NCBI RefSeq assembly: GCF_947498175.1
Contig: NZ_CANMJB010000003.1
Span: 248,001-312,000, forward strand
Origin: an uncultured Algimonas sp.
GTDB taxonomy: Bacteria; Pseudomonadota; Alphaproteobacteria; Caulobacterales; Maricaulaceae
Length of the DNA stretch: 64,000 bases
Reading direction: 5' to 3'
Positions 6,540 through 63,476 of the stretch are shown in pieces (the stretch's first letter is position 1; the number at the start of each line of letters is the position of its first letter). The notes below the pieces were generated by a model, which ran no database searches, was not told the DNA's origin, and saw only the letters and a program-made list of their open reading frames with translations. A program made the translations under genes and the position numbers.

Positions 6540-9500
6540 ATGCCGACTAAGAAAAGCCACAGTAAGTTTCTGGCCAATGGCGCCGCAACGTTCGTTCTAG
6601 CGAGCCTGATCCACGCGCCTTTGGCGAATGCGGTCGTGCCGAACGACAATACGAATTCCGAGGAAATCGTCGACACGGAAGGCGGAGTAAACGGAGTCGG
6701 CATGTTTTTCAGTGGCGGCAGCTGCACGGGAACTCTGATCAATCCGAGAACGGTTTTGTTTGCGGCCCATTGCGTTAATGATCGGCCTGAAAATGCCTAT
6801 GGATCAACGAGGGCTGCGGCGTTTGCATTCGACGTAGATGCGTTACCAGGTTTGCTAAACTGGATCCAGAACGGATTTGCCAGCAATCCTGATCTGTTCG
6901 TCTACAACATTAATCGGATATCCTACGATCCGCGGTCGCTCGACAATCCAGCCGCCCGCGGTTTTCTGGAAGCCGACATCGCTCTGGCGACTCTCGACAC
7001 GCCGGCAGCCAACGTACCGGCTTGGGCCATGCTATTCTCTGCTCTGCCTGTTCCGGACGCCCTGACCATCGAAAGCGGAACCGGTTATCACGTTAACATA
7101 ACGGGCTACGGACGAACCGGAAGCGGGACGACCGGTTCGTCGACGCCCGTAGATTTCCGTCGCCGTGCCGCCGAAAACTATATCGGCGCTTTGACGTCTC
7201 TTAACCAGAGAAGTGAATTTCTATTTGGTAATGGCGATAGAGGCTTGCCGCAGAACCTCTACATCACGGATTTCGACGACCCGAACCAGAATTCCGGCAC
7301 TGATTTCAATGTCCATCTCGACAATGCTCTGCCCAATGAAGGCACAACCGCATCAGGTGATTCTGGCGGCCCGCTCATTCTCGATGCGGCCAATAACGCC
7401 ATTACCGATATGGACATCGTAATCGGCGTCCTCTCCGGCGGCTCCACATTTCTCAATGGACAACCAGGTTCAAGCTATGGCTCCACGACCCTCTATCAGC
7501 CGCTTTATGCATTCTACGAATATATTGCCGCAAACAATCCGTACAAATATGTGGGCGCGCGTGCCGGCGACGGCAATTGGGAAGATCAATCCCACTGGGT
7601 GACGAATCTTGATCCGAACTACTACATCATCGATGAAAACGGCGCTGTCGTGAACGGCTTTCCCGATGTGCCGGAACAGGGCGTCAATGCCACGGACGGC
7701 GACTTCGGAGCGACTTGCGTCCAGTTCGACCGGTCACAACCCGGGAACTGCCGCGATATGTCCACCGGTGAAGACTTCACGACGGACAATCCTCCCGGAC
7801 CGTCTGATGCACAAGCCGCCACTGGAGTCGTCGAGGGTGCCGGAACGTCCAGTGGTCTTGTCGAAGGGCTTGAGGCTTCTCTGCCCGGTGACATCACCCT
7901 CGATGACGTTATAAACATCGCCAGCGACGGTATTGTCAGCGAGTATCGCTATCAGCAGCGGGCCGTAAACCTGGAAGTGGATTCTGCATCCGTTGCACAG
8001 GCTGCGCCCTCGGCCGATCTTCCCGCCCCCACGATTGACAATGGGTTGGCCGGTGCCACAGACTTCGTTCCAGATAACCGCAACCCGGATGCGGCCGCTG
8101 GTGTCAACGGCCGCTACTTCGATGTCACCTTGTCGGCCGATGGCACGACGACACTCAATAGCACGGTAACGATCGACCGTTTGACGGTCAGCGGCGCGAA
8201 TGCGGGGCTGACCATCGCGCCCGATGGCTCGTTGACCAGCCTGATGGATGTGAAACAAACTGCGGGATTGGTGAGTGTCGGCGGGACTCTGTCCAGCGTG
8301 GGCGACTATCTTCTGATGAGCGGCATGCTTACCGGATCCGGTACGGTGCAGACGCCGTTTCTGACGAATGTCATGGGGGCGATCGCGCCCGGCACAATGG
8401 GTGGAATCGGCACCTTGACCATTGACGGCAGTGCCGTGCTTGCATCCGCATCCACCTTGATCATCGACATCGGGGCGGACGGCGTCAACGACCGGCTCTT
8501 CGTGACGGGAGACTCCAGTCTCGGCGGCCGGGTGGTTTTCGCCCCGAACGCTGACGTACGCGCAGGCAACAGCTACACCTTCTTGACGACAGGAGGTACG
8601 CAAGCCGGAACGTTCGAGACTGATCAAGTCAGTGCAATTCTGCGATCCGTACTCAGCTATGGTGAAAACTCGGTCATGGCGCGGATCGAAGCAGGCGACT
8701 ATCTCGACGTGATTGCCTCGAACAGTTCTGTTCAGTCCGGTTACGCGCAGCTCTTGGATGCATCACGGGGGGCGGACGCCCTGGATCCGCTATTCGCTGC
8801 GCTCGACTTGGCAACGGCAGAAACGATCCAATCCACATTACAAAGCTGGGCGCCCGTATCGGAGACGACAAACCGTAGCCTCGCCAAGGCAAGCCTCGAT
8901 TTTCAGGCGAACTTCCATCGGGGTCGCATGAGCAGATTCAATGGCGGAAATTGGGGAGGAAAAGTCACCGTCATGGGCAGCCCCATCATGTTGGCTTCCA
9001 ATGCGGACGCCCTAAGCGCCGTATCCGGAGAGACTTTGATGGCCGCCGCCAATGGGGGGTCCATACGTCAGACCGCCAATATTCCGGACGACTACGAAGT
9101 CTTCTTGTCAGGCGCCTTCATCGACGGCGATGCAGAGACTCTTTCGACCGGACAAGCCGCAAATCCGGAAGACGACTTCGACGGTTGGTCGGTCGCCGCC
9201 GGCATCGAACGCAAAATGTCCGACCTAGTGAGTGTCGGCGCGTCGTTAAACTATACAACGCTGGATGCAGACAGTCCTGTCGGCAATGTGGCGGATAGCG
9301 ATTACTTCGCCGGGGCGGTTTACGGACAACTCCGATCATCGGTTGGCATGGTCCTGGACGGCTTAGTTAGTTTGGGATCGTACGGAACCGAGACGTCGCG
9401 CATTGTCACGGCGCCAGGTCTTGGAACCAATACGCTGACATCCGATGACAGCAGCTTGGCTTTCACAGCCGACTTGCTCGTGTCTCGTCCGATCGAAATG

Positions 9501-12121: not shown

Positions 12122-15100
12122 ATGCACTCTGATATCAAGTTGAGTAAGCTGCTGGCCTGTGCGGGAATGACGGCTCTTATGTTGGCTGTGGAGACGCAGT
12201 TCGCCTACGCGCAAGCGCCGGATCCCGAGATTGCGCCGACTGAAGACGAGATCGTGGTCACGGGCTCGCGTATCAGGCGTGACAGCAATGCCAGCTCGGC
12301 TGTACCGTTACAGGTTTTCAGCAGCGTGGCTTTCGACGAGATCGGCACGACCGATCTGGCCGAAGCGCTGGTCGAGATTCCGGGCGTGTCGGAAAGCATC
12401 TCGCCGGAAAACAGCAACAACCTCATCCAGACGTCTGGGCTTTCGACAGTCAGTTTGCGCCGTCTCGGCGACGACCGGACGCTCGTCTTGATCAATGGCA
12501 AACGCGCCGTGTCGAACTCTGGCAATTCGGACCGGGTTAGCGTTTCAACCATTCCAGCGGGGCTCGTGGAGCGCACGGAGATCACGACGGGTGGCGCATC
12601 CGCCATTTACGGGTCAGACGCTATCGCTGGTGTTGCGAACTTTCTGATCGAGGATGATTTCGAGGGCGGTCTTGTCCAGATGCGATACGAGACGCCAGAA
12701 GCTTCTGGCGGCGAGGAATTCCGTATTGAAGGCCAATATGGCCTGAGGTTCAACCAGGATCGCGGCTATATCATGGTGGCGGCCGACTACGACGAACGTC
12801 AGATGATCCGCGCGGATAGCACGCGGCCGCTCTCCGTCGCCAACATCAGTTTCGACGATCCGTCTTTTGCGGCCAATGACTTCTTTGCGGACCAGCCAAA
12901 CCAGCCAGGTTGTCGCCCTTTGCCGGAGGGCAATGATTTTCACTGTTTCCTCGGCAATCGCAGCTCCTTTACACCTGGTGGCGTTTTCGAAGGCGGGGAT
13001 GCCTGGTTCGTTGATGGGCGCTGGTTCAATGACCAGTCGCTACAACCAGCAGACAGAGCCGGCAATCCCGACGCACCCAATTCTGACTTCTTTAGCGATG
13101 TGGATGGTTTTGACTTCCGGACAGGTCGGACCTTGCGAGGTTCCCGCGACATCTACAATGTCGGCACTTATATCGAATATGATTTTACGAGTGCCATGAC
13201 GGGTTCTCTGTTGGCTCTCTACAATCAAGTTGATACGGTCACGGCGGGCGGGTTCGAAACACTGAACAACTCGGATTCCTTCGGAGACGGCCAGACTTTG
13301 GGGAATATAGCGGCAAATCATCCCTTTATTCCCCCTGAAGTCGAAGAAACGCGTTCTGGCAGTGTTTCTTTTGGCAGGCGTCTAGTCGAGTTAGGGGAAC
13401 AACAGCGGATCAATGACCGAGAGACTATTCGTCTGATCGGAGACTTGGGGGGCACGTTCGACAACGGCTTCAATTGGGAAATTTACGGCACGTTCGGCCA
13501 TTTCGAGCAGAATCAGACCAACCCGAACGAGTACAACATTCAAAAAGCCCAATTCGCACTCGACATTGAAGCCGACGGCAATGGCGGCTTCCAGTGTGTC
13601 AATGTTGCCGCACGGGCAGATGGTTGCGTTCCCCTCAACCCTTTCGGTGCAGGGACAATCACACAGGCAGCGGCAGACTATATCCGTTATAACGGCTCCG
13701 CCTCCCAGTCCCGCACACAGTATTCGGCCGGCGGTTATGTGTCGGGCGACGTCATGGAATTCCGCGACCGGGATATTCAAGGCGTTTTCGGTGTTGAATT
13801 CCGCCGCGAAGAACAAGAGACTAATGGTGATCCCGATGGAGATTTGATCGGCGGCCTAGATGGCGATCCGGCGACCCCGGATGTGGATGTCACTACATTG
13901 GCTACGTTCCCGGATCTGAAGGCCAGTTTCGATGTCATCGAAGCTTTCGCAGAAGTCGATATACCATTGACCGACGATTTGAGTCTTCAGGCTGCTGGTC
14001 GGATTGGAGACTACACCACTGTCGGCGCCATCACGAGCTACAACATTGGTACAGTTTGGCGGCCGAGCGAGCAATTTGCTATCCGCGGACAGTATTCACG
14101 CTCGCAACGGGCGCCGAACCTGACAGAGTTCTTTTCGCTGCCGCGCCCCGATTCCGACCCTCTGTTCGATCCTTGCGAGGGCTTGTTGCCAAACGGCGCT
14201 TATGAAGGCAGCCGGAGCTTCAGGACCGATCTGGGTCCGATCGATCCGGCCGTTGTATCCGCTAACTGTCTGACTGAACCCGGCGTCCTAGCCTATTTTG
14301 CAAATCCTGAAAATGTGGATGGAGACGGAAATGTGCTCGCCTTCGACGCACCGGGTGCCGTCCAAGGTCCAAACGCAGGCAATCCCAACCTGCAGGAAGA
14401 AACGGCAGACACATTCACGGTCGGCGCGATTTTCCAACCAGCATTTGTCGAAAACCTGACCTTTATTGTCGACTATTATAAAATCGACATCAGCGATGCA
14501 ATTACATCGGTCACGACGCAGAATACAGTAGATCTATGTTATGCCTCGGCAGGTTTCCCCGACAATAGGTTCTGCAATGTCATAACAAGGAACCCGGTTG
14601 ACGGAGCAGTGGAGGAAGTCATCAACTTCCAGGAAAACCTCAACAACGAGCTCGTCGAAGGTGTGGACGCTTCGCTTGATTACAATTTCGACGTTGGGGC
14701 TGTGCCGGGCCGTTGGGATCTGGATCTGCGCTACACACATTATTTCAAACAGGAAGTCGTGTTCGAGGGCCTTGGCGGCGTTGAATTACTGAGCACGAAC
14801 CTTGGTGAAATAAACAATGCCCGGAACGAGTTCAGAGCTTCCCTGGGCTGGCGGAATGACGGACTCCGCCTTCGTTATACGATGGTGTTCGAGGAGGGCG
14901 GAGTCGACGACCTCGTGAATGATCCCGCATATTTCAATGAGCGATATTTCGAGTTGGGAGACGAAACATTCCACCGCATCTTTGCATCCTATACCTTCGG
15001 TGAGGACGATAGATTCCGGGTCTTTGGCGGTGTGAACAACATCTTCGACAATTTCGGTCCGTTGGTGCCGAGCGGTCTCGATAATGGCAGCTCGCTGAAC

Positions 15101-58219: not shown

Positions 58220-58672
58220 ATGAAAACGTTTCTGACATTTCTGGGCGGCTGGATCGCCGCAGCGGTGGCGACGACGGCGCTGGGCGTCTTGTTCCAGACG
58301 CAGAACGTCATCGCGCGACTGAACGGGATCGGCGCGGATATCGGCTGGAGCGAGCGCCTGTCGATGAGCGCCTACGACCTGCTCCGTCTCGGCTCGCTCT
58401 ACATCCTCTTTGTCGGCATCGCGACGCTCGTCGCCTATCTGGCGGGCCTGTTGGTATACCGGTTGGCGAGTTTCGGGCGTTGGGTCGTCTTTGCCGTCGC
58501 CGGAGCGGTCGCCCTTTTCGTCATGCTGATGCTGATGAAGCAGGCCTTTTTCGGCGTGCATCTGATCGCGGGCGCGCGCGATGTGGCCGGGATCGGGTTC
58601 CAGATGCTGGCAGGCGCGCTTGGCGGGCTGGTTTTCGCCGGCCTGACGCGTCCCGCGCGTCGACGCGCCTAG
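58220..58672 (+). CDS. Small polytopic membrane protein of unknown function
   Basis: 150 residues with four hydrophobic segments (TFLGGWIAAAVATTALGVLF; LYILFVGIATLVAYLAGLLV; WVVFAVAGAVALFVMLMLM; IGFQMLAGALGGLVFAGL). The ATG follows AAGGAGG, the strongest ribosome site seen in the window. Its stop shares CTAG with the stop of the convergent histidine kinase gene. No family recognised. Confidence 0.72.
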   Translation: MKTFLTFLGGWIAAAVATTALGVLFQTQNVIARLNGIGADIGWSERLSMSAYDLLRLGSLYILFVGIATLVAYLAGLLVYRLASFGRWVVFAVAGAVALFVMLMLMKQAFFGVHLIAGARDVAGIGFQMLAGALGGLVFAGLTRPARRRA

Positions 58673-60834
58673 ACGGCCGAGCGCTCGGCCGCGGCGGGGC
58701 CGGTGCGGTTCTCGAACAGCGGATGGTCGCGCATCAGGTCGATGACCGTATCGTCCTGCAGGTCGGCCGTCGTGGCTGCTTCGTCCGCGAGCGGCAGGCG
58801 CAGGGTCAGAGTGAATTCCGAGCCGCGGCCTTCGCGCGAATTGACGACCAGGTCGCCATGCATCATCCGGGCGAGCTTGCGCGCGATGGCGAGGCTCAGC
58901 CCGGCGCCGCCATGTTTGCGCGTCGTGCTGGCGTCGGCCTGCAGAAACGGCCTGAACAGACGTGATTGCACCGCGTCGCTGATCCCTTGGCCCGTATCGG
59001 CCACGACCAGCGTCACGCGCAGGCAGCCCGATCCGTCCCTTTCCCCGGTCGCATGCAGGTGGACGCGGCCCTTTTGCGTGTAGCGCACCGCATTGCCCAG
59101 CAGGAAGCGCAGACATGTCTGCAGGCGCGCCGCATCCCCCAGAACGGTCCGGTCCAGGTCCGGCGCGACGAAGTGGGTGAAGGCCAGTCCCTTTTCGCTC
59201 GCAGCGACTTCCCATTTGCACACCTCCGGCATGATCGCATCGGTCAGGCGCATCGGTTCGTGCTCCAGCGACAGGTGGCCCGCCTCAATGGTGGACATGG
59301 TGATGAGGCTTTCCAGCAGGTCCTGCAACGTCTGGCCGCTTTGCTGCACGGTGCGCGCCTGTTCGCGCAGCACGGGGTCGTCGGCATGGTGGATCATGGC
59401 GTCGCTGATGCCGATGATTCCGTTCAGCGGAGTGCGCAGCTCGTGATTGACGACCCCCAGGAATTCGGTCTTCATCTTTTCCGCCGTGAGCGCCTCTTCC
59501 TGCAACGCCTGCATCTTGGTGTTCGACTTCTCCCGGTAGCGCAGGAAAGCCAGCAACAGGTTGAACGCCAGCGTCAGCCCCCCGATCAGGACCCATAACA
59601 GCCGGTTGAGCCGGTTCTTCTGCTCAAGCTGCACCGCCTTGAGCTCCGCCTCGCGCTGCAAGGCCGCCTCACGCTCGACCTGGCGTTCGCGGGTGTTTTC
59701 GAGATGGCTGAGCATGGATGCCGTATCGGCGGCACTGGCATCGTACATCTTGCCGATCATCAAATCGAGACGCCGGTTCATGAGTGAAACGGCAGATTCG
59801 GCATCGCCGGACGAAGCTGCCAGCAAGGCCCGGGCATGCAGACCGCCTTCGCTACGATCCGCCTTTGGCGTTGCCCCGTTTTCGTTCCAGAGACCTAGCT
59901 TTTCCATTTCCCTCAATGCCGCGTCGCGTTGCCCGAGACCCGCATAGGCGATCATGGCTTCTCCGTGAGAACGACGCTGGATAAGAGGATCGGAAGCTAA
60001 TTGAGCCGAAGTTGCATAATGAAGCGCTTTGGAATGCTCTCCAATCTCATTATACAAATCAGCCATATATACTTCGGCAAGGCCTTCGACCGTTGCCTCC
60101 GGCCGGGGCTCGTCGCTGAGCATGTCCGCAATGGCTTTTGCACCGTTATGATCGCGCTTCCAATTGAACGCTAACAAGAAATTGGTCATGGCTTCATAGC
60201 GATCGAAATGAAGCCCGAGTTTTTGATGGAGTTCGCGTGAAGTATGGCTGACTTCGAGCATGCGATTTGGGTCAGCGCTAACTCCGTAAAGCATGGTCAA
60301 CTGCTTTGCTAAGATCAGTTGGGCATCTGTCACCAAAATAGATATCTCGGTTGGAATCAGATCGAGAGCAGATTGAGCATATTGGCTAGCTAGGAGAAGC
60401 TCCATCTGCCTGATATGCAATATTGATAGAGCAGAGTTGGTATAAACCCCTGCATACCAGTCGTTTTCGTAATCGAATTGCTTAAGGGATTGGATCAATC
60501 GTTCTTGATCCAGCTGTTCATCTCCAAAGGACTCAATAAAAACTTTGCTAAGCTCTACCAGCTTGGGATGCGTTGAGCGAAGTGCGGAATACTCTTCATC
60601 GAGAAGCACTACTAGTTTCTGCTTGTCACCAAGGCTGATTACATCGTCTAGAGCGTACCGGAACTTGATGGCGTCGTGCTCGATTGCAGACCCCGTAACA
60701 ACGTGATGCTGTTGAGGTGAGTTGGCGCTGTCGAAAAAGGAAATTGTGTCTGTAGCCAAATCCTGAGCGTAAGTATGATCAGAAAAGGCTATGACGCTTA
60801 CAAAAAAAGACGATATGAAGATCAGAAAACGCAT
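58669..60834 (-). CDS. Sensor histidine kinase with a secreted TPR-like sensor half
   Basis: 721 residues. Signal sequence 1-24 (MRFLIFISSFFVSVIAFSDH). Residues about 25-400 are all helical, with TPR-like repeats (VEGLAEVYMADLYNEIGEHS; MIAYAGLGQRDAALREME), placed in the periplasm. One transmembrane helix lies at about 411-433. The kinase core has His464 in NHELRTPLNGIIG, an N box NAVRYTQ, and G boxes ADTGQGIS and GGAGLSLAIARKLA. There is no receiver domain, and no response-regulator gene is adjacent. The sensor-coding part is markedly AT-rich compared with the kinase part. The GG-peptide gene lies 110 bases upstream on the same strand; the peptide may be the ligand. Confidence 0.9.
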   Translation of the reverse strand: MRFLIFISSFFVSVIAFSDHTYAQDLATDTISFFDSANSPQQHHVVTGSAIEHDAIKFRYALDDVISLGDKQKLVVLLDEEYSALRSTHPKLVELSKVFIESFGDEQLDQERLIQSLKQFDYENDWYAGVYTNSALSILHIRQMELLLASQYAQSALDLIPTEISILVTDAQLILAKQLTMLYGVSADPNRMLEVSHTSRELHQKLGLHFDRYEAMTNFLLAFNWKRDHNGAKAIADMLSDEPRPEATVEGLAEVYMADLYNEIGEHSKALHYATSAQLASDPLIQRRSHGEAMIAYAGLGQRDAALREMEKLGLWNENGATPKADRSEGGLHARALLAASSGDAESAVSLMNRRLDLMIGKMYDASAADTASMLSHLENTRERQVEREAALQREAELKAVQLEQKNRLNRLLWVLIGGLTLAFNLLLAFLRYREKSNTKMQALQEEALTAEKMKTEFLGVVNHELRTPLNGIIGISDAMIHHADDPVLREQARTVQQSGQTLQDLLESLITMSTIEAGHLSLEHEPMRLTDAIMPEVCKWEVAASEKGLAFTHFVAPDLDRTVLGDAARLQTCLRFLLGNAVRYTQKGRVHLHATGERDGSGCLRVTLVVADTGQGISDAVQSRLFRPFLQADASTTRKHGGAGLSLAIARKLARMMHGDLVVNSREGRGSEFTLTLRLPLADEAATTADLQDDTVIDLMRDHPLFENRTGPAAAERSAV

Positions 60835-60888
60835 TGTAACCAGGTAAGTCGGCTACAAAGGTTTAAAATTTAGCTATAGCAGCAAAAG

Positions 60889-60913
60889 AAACCCGTATCT
60901 TAGAAACGGGTTT
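60889..60913 (-). terminator. Terminator between the GG-peptide gene and the histidine kinase gene
   Basis: On the minus strand: AAACCCGT, a 9-base loop, ACGGGTTT, then CTTTT. The 8-base stem and T-rich tail lie 32 bases after the peptide stop. It should make a short abundant peptide mRNA with some readthrough into the kinase gene. Confidence 0.65.
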
Positions 60914-60944
60914 GGGTCCACATGATAAAGGTTTTTAGTTAACT

Positions 60945-61013
60945 CTAAAAGTCGACAATGATGGGGTATCCACCAACGACAACGTCAAGTTCTTCAACAG
61001 TCAGTTCACGCAT
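60945..61013 (-). CDS. 22-residue double-glycine leader peptide (candidate exported heptapeptide signal)
   Basis: ATG at 61011-61013, TAG at 60945-60947. The leader MRELTVEELDVVVGG matches the double-glycine leader pattern cut by C39 peptidases: charged start, spaced hydrophobics Leu4, Leu9 and Val12, and Gly14-Gly15. Only YPIIVDF follows, far shorter than a bacteriocin. AGAGGA lies nine bases before the ATG. The gene sits between the exporter gene (61220) and the kinase gene (60834), all on the minus strand. Its own CtrA box and terminator suggest a separate transcript. It is too short for routine gene calling. Confidence 0.75.
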   Translation of the reverse strand: MRELTVEELDVVVGGYPIIVDF

Positions 61014-61043
61014 TGTGTTGAGTCCTCTCTTTGGGGGTTGTGT

Positions 61044-61060
61044 GGTCGGGACATCCGACC
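61044..61060 (-). promoter_or_regulatory. Hairpin in the GG-peptide leader
   Basis: GGTCGG, a 5-base loop, CCGACC: a perfect 6-base stem 31 bases before the peptide ATG, in the predicted untranslated leader. It could be an operator or a translation-control element. A GACTC (GANTC, CcrM methylation motif) lies at 61020-61024, next to the ribosome site. Confidence 0.35.
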
Positions 61061-61130
61061 GCACTCGGACATAAGCAAAGTGCGTACCAAGCGTTCAAGC
61101 TAAATATGTGTCATAGTTGAACAAAACAGG

Positions 61131-61146
61131 GTTAACACGTTGTTAA
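61131..61146 (-). promoter_or_regulatory. CtrA-type box upstream of the GG-peptide gene
   Basis: On the minus strand: TTAA-CAACGTG-TTAAC, a perfect match to TTAA-N7-TTAAC, about 118 bases before the peptide ATG. CtrA boxes at activated promoters often overlap the -35 position; a TATGAC about 15 bases downstream could be the -10. Expression would then be tied to cell-cycle or swarmer-cell state. Confidence 0.65.
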
Positions 61147-61219
61147 TTCATCTTTCTTGACGCATCAGAGGCAAGAAGTCAAATCACTCATGTCAAGATT
61201 GCAAAAACAATTTTGTCAA

Positions 61220-63292
61220 TCATGACTGCGACACTTCGATGACCCGGTCGCTGGCTTCCAAGAAGGCCGGACGATGGGCGACGACGATGCGGGTCATGTC
61301 GAGCCTGGCGACGAGGTCCACGACGGTTTTTTCCGTTTCCACATCCAGATTGGCCGTGCCTTCATCCAGGAACAGCACGTCCGGCTCCTGGTAGAGCGCG
61401 CGGGCCAGCAGGAGGCGCTGTTTCTGCCCGCCGGACAGGATCGACCCCATGTCGCCGATCACGGCCAGGTAATTCATCGGGATCGCCGCGATAGTATCAT
61501 GGATGTGTGCCGCGCTGGCCGCCCGCATCACACGTTGCATGTCGATTTCCGGATCGAAGAAGGCGATATTGTCCGCGATCGTGCCGGACAAGAGCCGGTC
61601 GTCCTGCATGACGACTCCGACGCGCGCGCGCCAGTCGCCCGGATCGATCGTGGCAAGGTCGCGCCCGTCCACGCGCACCGTGCCGGCGTCCGGGGCGTAG
61701 AGCCCCAGCATCAATTTCATCAGGGTCGTCTTGCCCCCTCCGGACGGGCCAGTCAGCGTCACCATCTCGCCGGCGGCGATGTCGAGGCTGAAATCCTCGA
61801 CCACCACCGGGTCTTCCGGCGAATAGGCGAAAGTCACGCCGTCCAGCACGATGCGACCGTCCAGCTCGCCAAGCGGCGCATGGCCGTCCGCCGCAAGTTC
61901 CGGCGCGGCATGGACGATGTCCGCCAGCCGGTCGAGATGCAGCGAGAGCAGCCGGAACTCATTGCCCTTGGTCACGAGCTGCACCACCGCGTCGGAGAAA
62001 TACTGCCGGTAGATCAGGAAGGCGACGAGCATGCCGACGGTGAAGGTGCTGTCTTCGCCCGTCATGATCCAGGCGGCCGCGACCACGACGGCCACCACCT
62101 GCAGTCCTATGACAAGCGTCTGGGCGAAGGTCTGCGCCACCTGCCAGCGCTGGTGGCCGACATCGGCATTGACGAAATCGGTGAACAGGTTGGCCCAGCT
62201 GGCTTCGCGTTCGGCTTCGCGCCCGAACAGCTTCACGGTCGTCGAGGCGCGGATGCTTTCGATCACATGGCTGTTCTCCAGCGCGCGGGCATAGATCGCC
62301 TCCTCCTGCGTGGCGCGCAGGCGCGGATAGATCAACAGCGTCGCGGCGACCAGCAGCGCCGTCGTGCCGACCACGATCCCCGCCAGCAGCGGCGAGAAGA
62401 GAAACATCACCACCAGCATGATGGCCGCCATCGCTCCGTCGATCAGAACGGACACGACGGACTGGCTGAGCGCTTCCTGGATCGGCTGGGTGGAGTTCAT
62501 CCGGCTGATGATGTCGCCGACATGGCGGCGTTCGAAATATCGCACGGGCAGACGCACCAGATGGCGGAAGATGTTGCCGACCATCTGGCGCGACAGCTGC
62601 GCCCCGAACGTGACGATCGTGTAGCCGCGTGCGGCCTCGACCAAGGCGCGCATCACGGCCAGTCCGCCGAAGCCGACGGCCAGCGCGAGCAAAAGCCCCC
62701 GATCCCCATCCGGCAGCACTGCATCCACCGCCAATTGGAACAGGAAGGGCGCGACCAGGATCGTCGCCAACAGCGCGACGGACAGGGCCAGCGTCTGCCC
62801 CACCGCCCGTTTCGCCCCGACCAGCGACGACCACAGGTCCGTCAGTCGCGGCCGGATGCGGTCGCTCACGGGCTGGAAGTCTTCCGCCGGGGTCAGTTCC
62901 AGCGCGACACCGGTGAAATGACCGGACACTTTGGACAGCGTCATCGTGCGCGCCCCGATGCCCGGATCGATGATCTCCACCCGGTCCTCGCGCACGCATT
63001 TCAGCACGACGAAATGGTTCAAGTCCCAGTGCAGGATGGCGGGCGTGGCCAGCTTGTGCAGCTGGTTCAGATCGACGCGCAAGGCGCGCGGCGACAGGGA
63101 CAGCGTGCCCGCGATCTTGATGATCTGCTTCAGTGAGGTGCCGCGCATCGACAGCAGGTATTTCTCGCGCAAGGAATTCAAATCGACGTCGTGGCCGTGA
63201 TAGCGCGCGACCATGGCCAGGCAGGCCAACCCGCATTCCGTCATCTCCGTCTGCAGGATGACCGGCAGGCGCGGCGCGAATGGATTATCCAC
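61220..63292 (-). CDS. C39-peptidase ABC exporter (double-glycine peptide processing and secretion)
   Basis: 690 residues from GTG 63290-63292, with GGAG eight bases upstream; ATG 63316 is possible. The N-terminal C39 peptidase has Gln14, Cys20 (EMTECGLACLAM), His93 (HWDLNHFVVL) and Asp109, all intact, so it should cut after Gly-Gly. A six-helix membrane domain follows (FLFSPLLAGIVVGTTALLV), then the ATPase: Walker A TGPSGGGKTTL, signature LSGGQKQRLLLARAL, Walker B DVLFLDEGT, H-loop VVAHRP. It overlaps the mini-HlyD gene by eight bases. The GG-peptide gene downstream is the obvious substrate. Confidence 0.92.
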   Translation of the reverse strand: MDNPFAPRLPVILQTEMTECGLACLAMVARYHGHDVDLNSLREKYLLSMRGTSLKQIIKIAGTLSLSPRALRVDLNQLHKLATPAILHWDLNHFVVLKCVREDRVEIIDPGIGARTMTLSKVSGHFTGVALELTPAEDFQPVSDRIRPRLTDLWSSLVGAKRAVGQTLALSVALLATILVAPFLFQLAVDAVLPDGDRGLLLALAVGFGGLAVMRALVEAARGYTIVTFGAQLSRQMVGNIFRHLVRLPVRYFERRHVGDIISRMNSTQPIQEALSQSVVSVLIDGAMAAIMLVVMFLFSPLLAGIVVGTTALLVAATLLIYPRLRATQEEAIYARALENSHVIESIRASTTVKLFGREAEREASWANLFTDFVNADVGHQRWQVAQTFAQTLVIGLQVVAVVVAAAWIMTGEDSTFTVGMLVAFLIYRQYFSDAVVQLVTKGNEFRLLSLHLDRLADIVHAAPELAADGHAPLGELDGRIVLDGVTFAYSPEDPVVVEDFSLDIAAGEMVTLTGPSGGGKTTLMKLMLGLYAPDAGTVRVDGRDLATIDPGDWRARVGVVMQDDRLLSGTIADNIAFFDPEIDMQRVMRAASAAHIHDTIAAIPMNYLAVIGDMGSILSGGQKQRLLLARALYQEPDVLFLDEGTANLDVETEKTVVDLVARLDMTRIVVAHRPAFLEASDRVIEVSQS

Positions 63293-63476
63293 GCAACCAG
63301 CTCCAGACGCTTGCACCGTCCACCTGGATCCCGAACAGGATCAGCGCGACCGTCAGGACGGCGCCGAGCACCAGAACTCCGACCGCCCACACGGGCAGCG
63401 GACCGCGCAGCACGACCTCTCCGAACAAGGCGCGCGAGCGGCGCGCCATCGCTTCCTTGCGGAACAGCTGGCTCAT
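63285..63476 (-). CDS. 63-residue HlyD-type anchor protein (adaptor stub)
   Basis: The ATG at 63476 has GGGGGG six bases upstream. MSQLFRKEAMARRSRALFGE is the cytoplasmic start of HlyD-family adaptors, followed by one transmembrane helix (VWAVGVLVLGAVLTVALILF). It then stops after QVDGASVWSWLRG, before any periplasmic barrel or hairpin. The stop overlaps the exporter start. No HlyD continuation is present in other frames, since the exporter begins at once. It is either a relic or a purposeful mini-adaptor. Confidence 0.75.
   Translation of the reverse strand: MSQLFRKEAMARRSRALFGEVVLRGPLPVWAVGVLVLGAVLTVALILFGIQVDGASVWSWLRG

Follow-up and report, generated by a model that had tools for sequence, protein, structure and literature searches.

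A candidate peptide signalling cassette in Algimonas: a Gly-Gly micro-gene, its exporter and a kinase with a predicted TPR sensor

The locus and its peptide gene

Can a bacterium with two membranes make, export and sense a short peptide by means of four neighbouring genes? The question is raised by a 64,000-nucleotide stretch of DNA from an uncultured Algimonas sp. (contig NZ_CANMJB010000003.1, positions 248,001 to 312,000; hereafter the window, with positions counted from its first letter). At 58669-63476 on the minus strand lie four co-directed genes, encoding, in order, a mini-HlyD, a C39 peptidase-containing ABC exporter (PCAT), a micro-gene product of 22 residues and a histidine kinase. 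Sensing of peptide pheromones through tetratricopeptide repeat (TPR) receptors or kinases is textbook knowledge for Gram-positive bacteria, and an earlier note on this DNA had proposed that the quartet makes, exports and senses a heptapeptide. All four genes were found where the note had placed them, which confirms the observation as real. We consider it probable that they form a peptide signalling cassette, in which the precursor would be cut and the peptide exported to the periplasm, where the TPR kinase would sense it.

The micro-gene (60945..61013, minus strand) encodes MRELTVEELDVVVGGYPIIVDF, that is, a Gly-Gly leader, MRELTVEELDVVVGG (60969..61013), followed by the core YPIIVDF, which with its stop codon occupies 60945..60968. 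The gene and its parts were assigned by reading the open reading frame (ORF), the leader also by its conservation in other loci and the core, a predicted mature heptapeptide, by comparison with other cores. Having only 22 codons and scoring above the cut-off of no Pfam or NCBIfam model, the micro-ORF might be a chance frame or artefact and no gene. Its relatives speak against this. A search for the exporter in 60 related genomes gave a match at E 1e-150 or better in 27, and of 212 relatives found by scanning the named genome collection, the best 80 were kept; the carriers of the cassette are named Algimonas, Litorimonas, Hellea, Robiginitomaculum or uncultured Caulobacterales. Thirty-eight cassette loci were compared, 31 of them with more than 300 nucleotides (nt) 3' of the exporter and seven ending at or before 202 nt. 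All 31 loci with room for it have a Gly-Gly micro-gene 3' of the exporter, which starts 134-277 nt past the exporter stop, and in the 29 loci with a visible kinase it ends 54-188 nt before the first possible kinase start. Loss of this frame from relatives that keep exporter and kinase was the observation that the earlier note would have counted against itself; the frame is present in all 29. Flanking genes vary between loci, the quartet is constant, and purine-rich stretches lie 5' of the micro-gene start codons. With position, leader and type of core conserved in 31/31 loci, and with core copies that differ only silently (see below), a mere chance ORF is barely conceivable.

Forty-two complete precursors were assembled, 36 paired with a sensor, one from a locus cut before the kinase (G128) and five from genomes with divergent cores. 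The cores include YPIIVDF, APIIVDF, LPIVIDF, QPIIVGDF, MPIIIDF, RPIIVEW, TPIVIRN and NPITIEI. Proline is at core position 2 in 30 of the 40 tabulated cores, a pattern that two later cores outside this table (FPIVITD and IPIVINF) also fit, and such an X-Pro start would be expected to resist trimming by aminopeptidases. Counting single units for tandem precursors, 39 of the 40 cores have 5-11 residues, mostly 5-9, and are thus not of bacteriocin size; the exception, at locus L094, has 31.

In nine of the 42 precursors the core is present in tandem, two to five times (FPIIIG x3, FPIDIEV x2, RSIKT x4, TPIDIEL x3, IPVIDF x4, LPADIEW x4, LPIDIEV x3, GPVIIET x3 and RGVVL x5), with spacers of 1-7 residues. 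Across these nine, core copies differ by at least 52 nucleotide changes, every one of them silent, and by no amino-acid change, a count biased by the definition of copies through unit identity; under neutrality, the product of the nine probabilities of silent-only copies is 2e-32. Degenerate copies were not overlooked, since tandem precursors consist of leader, units and spacers alone, save for one with a leading Ser and one with a two-residue tail. Spacers within the same genes vary in amino acids in several precursors (GKA/EKA/DKA; IAGS/IVSA; APGV/EPSV). As all differences between copies are silent, selection acts on the short core, which is under purifying selection. Such precursors recall yeast alpha-factor, and some spacers (VVGT, IAGS) resemble the leader's own cleavage site. 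Given cores that are not always seven residues long and that come in several copies in some precursors, a C39 cut at the leader alone may not suffice there.

A Gly-Gly precursor beside a PCAT could instead belong to a short antimicrobial or a ribosomally synthesised and post-translationally modified peptide (RiPP), with the kinase inducing its own cluster as in lantibiotic autoinduction. To our knowledge, Gly-Gly leaders and PCATs mostly serve bacteriocins and multi-core precursors occur among RiPPs; a larger Gly-Gly peptide is also found at a sister exporter locus (L096). The brevity of the cores, however, fits this poorly. Nor does a modification enzyme recur, because, exporter and kinase aside, no family of at least 90 amino acids (aa) occurs in more than seven of 24 loci, a comparison restricted to genes of that size, with smaller immunity genes outside it. 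Further, the peptide gene stays beside the kinase where the exporter is elsewhere. Taken together, we regard an antimicrobial or RiPP product as very unlikely.

The same comparison led us to reject a linked response regulator or a common target gene, and no regulator gene was found to recur beside the cassette in these neighbourhoods. Neighbouring families identified by scanning were PhzF-like (three of the seven scanned), DUF2207 and LemA, ExoD and PhaC, together with a protein that matches DUF481 weakly.

The kinase, its predicted sensor fold and its candidate peptide partner

The sensor histidine kinase (58669..60834, minus strand; 721 aa) has HisKA (E 4.5e-13) and HATPase_c (E 8e-23) domains and no receiver domain. 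By reading, all 29 kinases, the window's included, have a signal-peptide-like start, which a plain hydropathy cut-off detects in 19 of them, the window's not among these. One hydrophobic segment of the window kinase exceeds the cut-off (residues 412-430); a corresponding segment is located inside residues 412-496 in 26/29 kinases, and the remaining three are cut by contig ends. The region between, residues 25-412 (59599..60762, minus strand), would form the periplasmic sensor, for which the earlier note had suggested a TPR-like structure. The window protein has no Pfam TPR hit. A profile of the 29 sensor sequences including the window's (A3), however, finds TPR proteins of designed consensus sequence, 7obi scoring best (E 2e-6); Hop TPR2A (E 0.001) is one of its weaker matches. 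In agreement, the AlphaFold2 model of the sensor is an all-helical solenoid with a mean pLDDT of 88, and its PDB matches by Foldseek, generic TPR proteins, include RapI, RapH, a phage Rap with its pheromone, NprR-NprX and AimR. The TPR fold of the sensor is thereby confirmed by prediction.

This architecture, a single hydrophobic segment preceded by a helical solenoid, is not that of a polytopic (HPK10-type) sensor domain. Neither is it that of a cytoplasmic RRNPP protein with a helix-turn-helix or phosphatase-type effector, as it combines a signal-peptide-like start, a transmembrane segment, HisKA and HATPase_c. An Asn at sensor residue 194 is invariant in A3 and mostly situated inside the motif NNL. 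RRNPP receptors and Hop grip the peptide backbone through Asn residues of their inner TPR helices, which makes Asn 194 a candidate peptide contact.

A receiver domain was found in six of the seven relatives' kinases scanned with Pfam, and in neither the window kinase nor L039 (from the same genome as L066). Inspection of the alignment showed that the receiver of L038 has Asn in place of Asp at the phospho-acceptor position. The Algimonas lineage displays receiver decay, with no receiver in the window and L066 (L039) kinases and the Asp to Asn change in L038.

To what extent do peptide and kinase travel together? Among 137 family genomes, A3 matched 43 at E 1e-10 or better, and a precursor profile (A4) was run on the same 137. 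In 36 of these 43 a micro-gene lies upstream of the sensor match on the same strand, at a distance of 180-387 nt, and in four others (G005, G009, G012 and G062) the contig ends 3-313 nt upstream. The pair also occurs apart from the exporter. In G018, a single contig, it is 1.3 Mb from the sole exporter match at E 1e-150, and in five genomes with other cores no exporter adjoins the micro-gene in the stretches fetched: G084 (RGVVL x5), G087 (MPPITE), G089 (SLKVEV), G090 (GTVVVL) and G092 (NHVPVEI). In G084, G087 and G089 the micro-gene is followed by a kinase that has HisKA and HATPase_c and lacks a receiver; the next gene of G090 runs into masked bases and that of G092 is cut by the contig end. 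All five sensors are distant relatives of A3 (three clearly, with E 2e-11 to 2e-9, and two weakly, with 4e-4 and 0.006, computed for a set of five sequences), and four of them have INN at the position of the invariant Asn, with VYG in G092. On this evidence, the unit is the peptide-kinase pair.

The exporter, its truncated HlyD and the probable destination of the peptide

The window exporter (61220..63316, minus strand; 698 aa from the listed GTG) contains Peptidase_C39 (E 7e-36), ABC_membrane and ABC_tran domains; the NCBIfam model that fits it best, for the NHLP bacteriocin exporter, scores 489 bits, far under that model's cut-off of 853. Consistent with the intact C39 peptidase that had been claimed for it, C28, H101 and D117, which we take to be the usual C39 triad, are invariant in 16/16 aligned exporters, the window's included. 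Among solved structures, the exporter profile finds ComA chains as well as other matches.

Its partner, the mini-HlyD (63285..63476, minus strand; 63 aa), whose ORF overlaps the listed PCAT ORF by 32 nt, corresponds to a HlyD N-terminus with one transmembrane segment and a short tail ending in WSWLRG. No Pfam family hits it above cut-off, yet it aligns with the N-termini of full HlyDs. A mini-HlyD is present in 37 of the 38 cassette loci by search and in L094 by reading, and measures 63-88 aa in 37/38, with starts chosen by us. These stumps keep the LFRKEA...RALFGEV...P..W anchor of full HlyD together with one transmembrane segment, and end in a W.WL-like tail resembling the HlyD C-terminus (WEWAF). 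The periplasmic adaptor, comprising the lipoyl, hairpin and barrel parts of HlyD, is absent from the 37 aligned minis, and all 38 cassette loci lack it. In this they depart from type I secretion, which has such an adaptor; the full HlyD of L054, by comparison, has HlyD_3 and lipoyl domains. Because the HlyD is truncated, the exporter probably delivers the peptide to the periplasm and not to the outside, and a stump of this kind raises the question of a role for HlyD at a PCAT apart from bridging the envelope.

In a tree of 88 exporter rows made by a quick method, the cassette exporters form one branch (36 rows including L094, SH-aLRT 99). Its sister branch holds seven exporters (from Hellea and other metagenome-assembled genomes, one of these labelled Woeseiaceae) with adjoining HlyD genes, six of 406-412 aa and one, L100, of just 167 aa in one frame. 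The simplest reading of this tree would be that the adaptor was lost a single time.

The proposed circuit, its counterparts and its regulation

From these parts we infer cleavage, transport, binding and output as follows. The Gly-Gly leader would be recognised and the C39 domain would cut the 22-residue precursor, after which the exporter would pump YPIIVDF across the inner membrane. Release into the periplasm is most likely, because the exporter's partner is a HlyD membrane anchor alone, and could be followed by action on the same cell or by leakage through porins. The heptapeptide would bind the TPR solenoid of the kinase, probably in its concave groove near Asn 194, and thereby change kinase or phosphatase activity; phosphate would pass to the receiver fused to the kinase in most scanned relatives and to an unlinked partner in this strain. 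Our best reading of the locus is an analogue of ComABCD in a diderm, its receptor having an RRNPP-like fold. More tentatively, it may be a self-contained Gram-negative peptide-hormone system, in which minimal or tandem alpha-factor-like precursors, an adaptor-stripped exporter releasing the signal into the periplasm and an RRNPP-like TPR receptor-kinase would allow sensing without re-import. The interpretation offered in the earlier note is supported by the kept frame and the predicted TPR fold, and needs amending in that the truncated adaptor points to the periplasm and the core is not always a heptapeptide.

Several results weigh against the proposed circuit. In Mantel comparisons of 26 loci (one unit per tandem precursor; excluding L094, L078, L080 and every locus whose kinase is not visible), core distance was unlinked to sensor distance after removal of exporter distance (partial r -0.13, p 0.86), and showed a slight link to exporter distance (partial r 0.23, p 0.02). 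The charges of core and sensor are uncorrelated (Spearman -0.04). Structure prediction of sensor and peptide, advised in the earlier note, did not place the core in a tethered AlphaFold model for L038 (pLDDT about 30-45), a weak test since uncleaved leader and signal peptide were in the chain. The RRNPP matches in Foldseek are weak, with one of 1031 matches below E 0.001 and that one not RRNPP. In three genomes (G004, G061 and the distant G076) the kinase has room upstream and no peptide gene there, nor does any of them give a precursor match genome-wide at E 0.5; G004 also has no exporter match at E 1e-150. Outside the family, distant TPR kinases of the wider type are found in 16 genomes of other families (33/299 genomes of the order sample matched overall), and in the eight of these 16 that were examined by leader pattern no convincing Gly-Gly gene adjoins. 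Finally, this genome holds full-length HlyD_3 and TolC-type genes elsewhere, which may act in trans.

The last point bears on a variant that keeps the same ligand and receptor and differs in the peptide's destination: a full HlyD and TolC encoded elsewhere in the genome would complete the exporter, with the mini-HlyD as a regulatory subunit, and the peptide would serve outside the cell as a population-density pheromone. Besides the HlyD_3 and OEP (TolC-type) genes, it is favoured by the 412-aa HlyD beside the exporter homologue of G018 and by the variable first core residue, which resembles pherotype variation. On the other hand, all 38 cassette exporters examined adjoin a sequence-conserved stump, as if it were sufficient, whereas a full-size HlyD adjoins six of the seven sister exporters and the second PCAT of this genome. 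Export to the outside is therefore possible, although we rather doubt it.

The distant kinases, for their part, indicate that a TPR sensor as such need not go with a peptide of this type, and, along with the stump and the periplasmic delivery that it suggests, they would suit a peptide that acts as a periplasmic co-factor or negative regulator. In that case it would set the kinase threshold, with another ligand carrying the information and the exporter reporting energy or envelope state. The diversity of cores and their tandem copies fit a specific ligand better, and we think the co-factor role unlikely. As separate observations, the kinases of G004 (L176) and G061 (L179) may be receivers without senders, and four TPR kinases from another family of the order (L228, L231, L232 and L243) share an IDGxVxINN-like motif. 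None of these four kinases has a convincing Gly-Gly gene upstream; L231 has one leader-pattern match, 1.5 kb downstream on the other strand. Short ORFs upstream of distant TPR kinases in four genomes were read as parts of, or overlapping, larger genes.

How does the proposed periplasmic circuit relate to known systems? Like ComABCDE and BlpABCHR of streptococci, it has a Gly-Gly precursor adjoining a PCAT with intact C39 residues, an HlyD-like accessory protein and a histidine kinase in the same locus. The ComABCDE and BlpABCHR kinases are polytopic membrane sensors, in contrast to a cassette kinase with one transmembrane segment and a periplasmic TPR solenoid; the cores are mostly of 5-9 residues, the HlyD-like protein is a 63-aa stump, and no separate response regulator recurs among genes of at least 90 aa. 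With RRNPP proteins (Rap, NprR, PlcR, PrgX) and AimR the kinase shares a TPR solenoid, here predicted. Ligands of RRNPP proteins are short peptides, and the proteins, located in the cytoplasm, act once a Sec-exported peptide has been re-imported; the cassette has its TPR domain in the periplasmic portion of a kinase and would export through a PCAT. Type I secretion with HlyD and TolC (colicin V type) likewise pairs a PCAT with an HlyD-family protein, which in the cassette is a membrane anchor with neither a TolC-reaching adaptor nor an outer-membrane gene. FimS of Porphyromonas gingivalis is, like the cassette kinase, a two-component sensor kinase; it has a periplasmic TPR domain, and we know of no link to a peptide gene or exporter. 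Its signal is stated to be unknown (PMC11053733). Among the accounts read, HetC of Nostoc is the nearest diderm precedent: this PCAT is needed for differentiation and its substrate is called unknown, and HetC with PatS-type peptides of heterocystous cyanobacteria combines a diderm PCAT with short peptide signals in the same process; a TPR kinase is named in neither abstract (PMC10986499, PMC4133259). By its parts, then, the cassette is ComABCD-like; it falls outside the ComABCD family on its sensor domain and outside RRNPP on location and effector.

Among the matches listed by full-text literature searches there was no description of the cassette, with subscription papers thinly covered, so that absence from print is not established. 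Dirix and colleagues reportedly surveyed Gram-negatives early on, in silico, for Gly-Gly peptides. The interest of the cassette lies in having a ligand, an exporter and a receptor each of which can be named and tested. For periplasmic TPR kinases it suggests ligands, and a conserved family with a predicted ligand per receptor in stalked marine alphaproteobacteria would open the field to Gram-negatives. With natural tandem precursors and about forty ligand-receptor pairs, specificity can be tested directly by means of short synthetic peptides, for which cultured strains exist (Algimonas arctica KCTC 32513, Litorimonas cladophorae KCTC 23968, Hellea balneolensis DSM 19091 and Robiginitomaculum antarcticum DSM 21748).

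Between micro-gene and kinase, a hairpin with CCCGC/GCGGG arms and a T run was read in 21 of the 29 loci. A looser rule finds some hairpin in 29/29, with 18.6 expected from simple shuffles, so that only the shared arms are telling. In the window, the probable intrinsic terminator (60889..60913, minus strand) consists of the hairpin AAACCCGT...ACGGGTTT, with CCCGT arms, followed by TCTTTT; it exceeds the loop limit of the hairpin listing, which gives a weaker one at 60834-60858, and was hence read by eye. With a hairpin between their genes, peptide and receptor are probably made in unequal amounts, and a terminator at this place would make the peptide the more abundant of the two.

Upstream, 133 nt 5' of the peptide start, lies a TTAA-N7-TTAA palindrome (61132..61146, no strand assigned; TTAACAACGTGTTAA on the minus strand). 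The exact site is present in 10 of 40 upstream regions of precursor genes, compared with a mean of 1.6 and a maximum of 6 in 300 shuffles. This is presumably the spacing of CtrA sites, and the palindrome may be a CtrA-type site or another operator, as a lead only; a conserved CtrA-type site was rejected, the motif being enriched and its position not conserved. A genome paper describes Algimonas porphyrae as dimorphic and prosthecate and gives the order as Caulobacterales (PMC11556061); NCBI taxonomy places Algimonas, Litorimonas, Hellea and Robiginitomaculum in Robiginitomaculaceae, order Maricaulales.

Other PCATs were observed in passing. The second PCAT of this genome (G000:C3:373518-376753) is 47% identical to that of the cassette and directly followed by a full HlyD; a leader-pattern search found no substrate gene for it. 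L064 (G050) has two adjacent PCATs, with three weak opposite-strand leader matches (8378-8422, 13415-13474 and 15043-15087). At Sphingomonadales and other alphaproteobacterial PCAT loci (L131, L134, L136, L138 and L144), Gly-Gly precursors with Lys/Ser/Gly/His-rich repeats, such as KGSKKGSKK and STKKHSTKKH, lie near the exporters.

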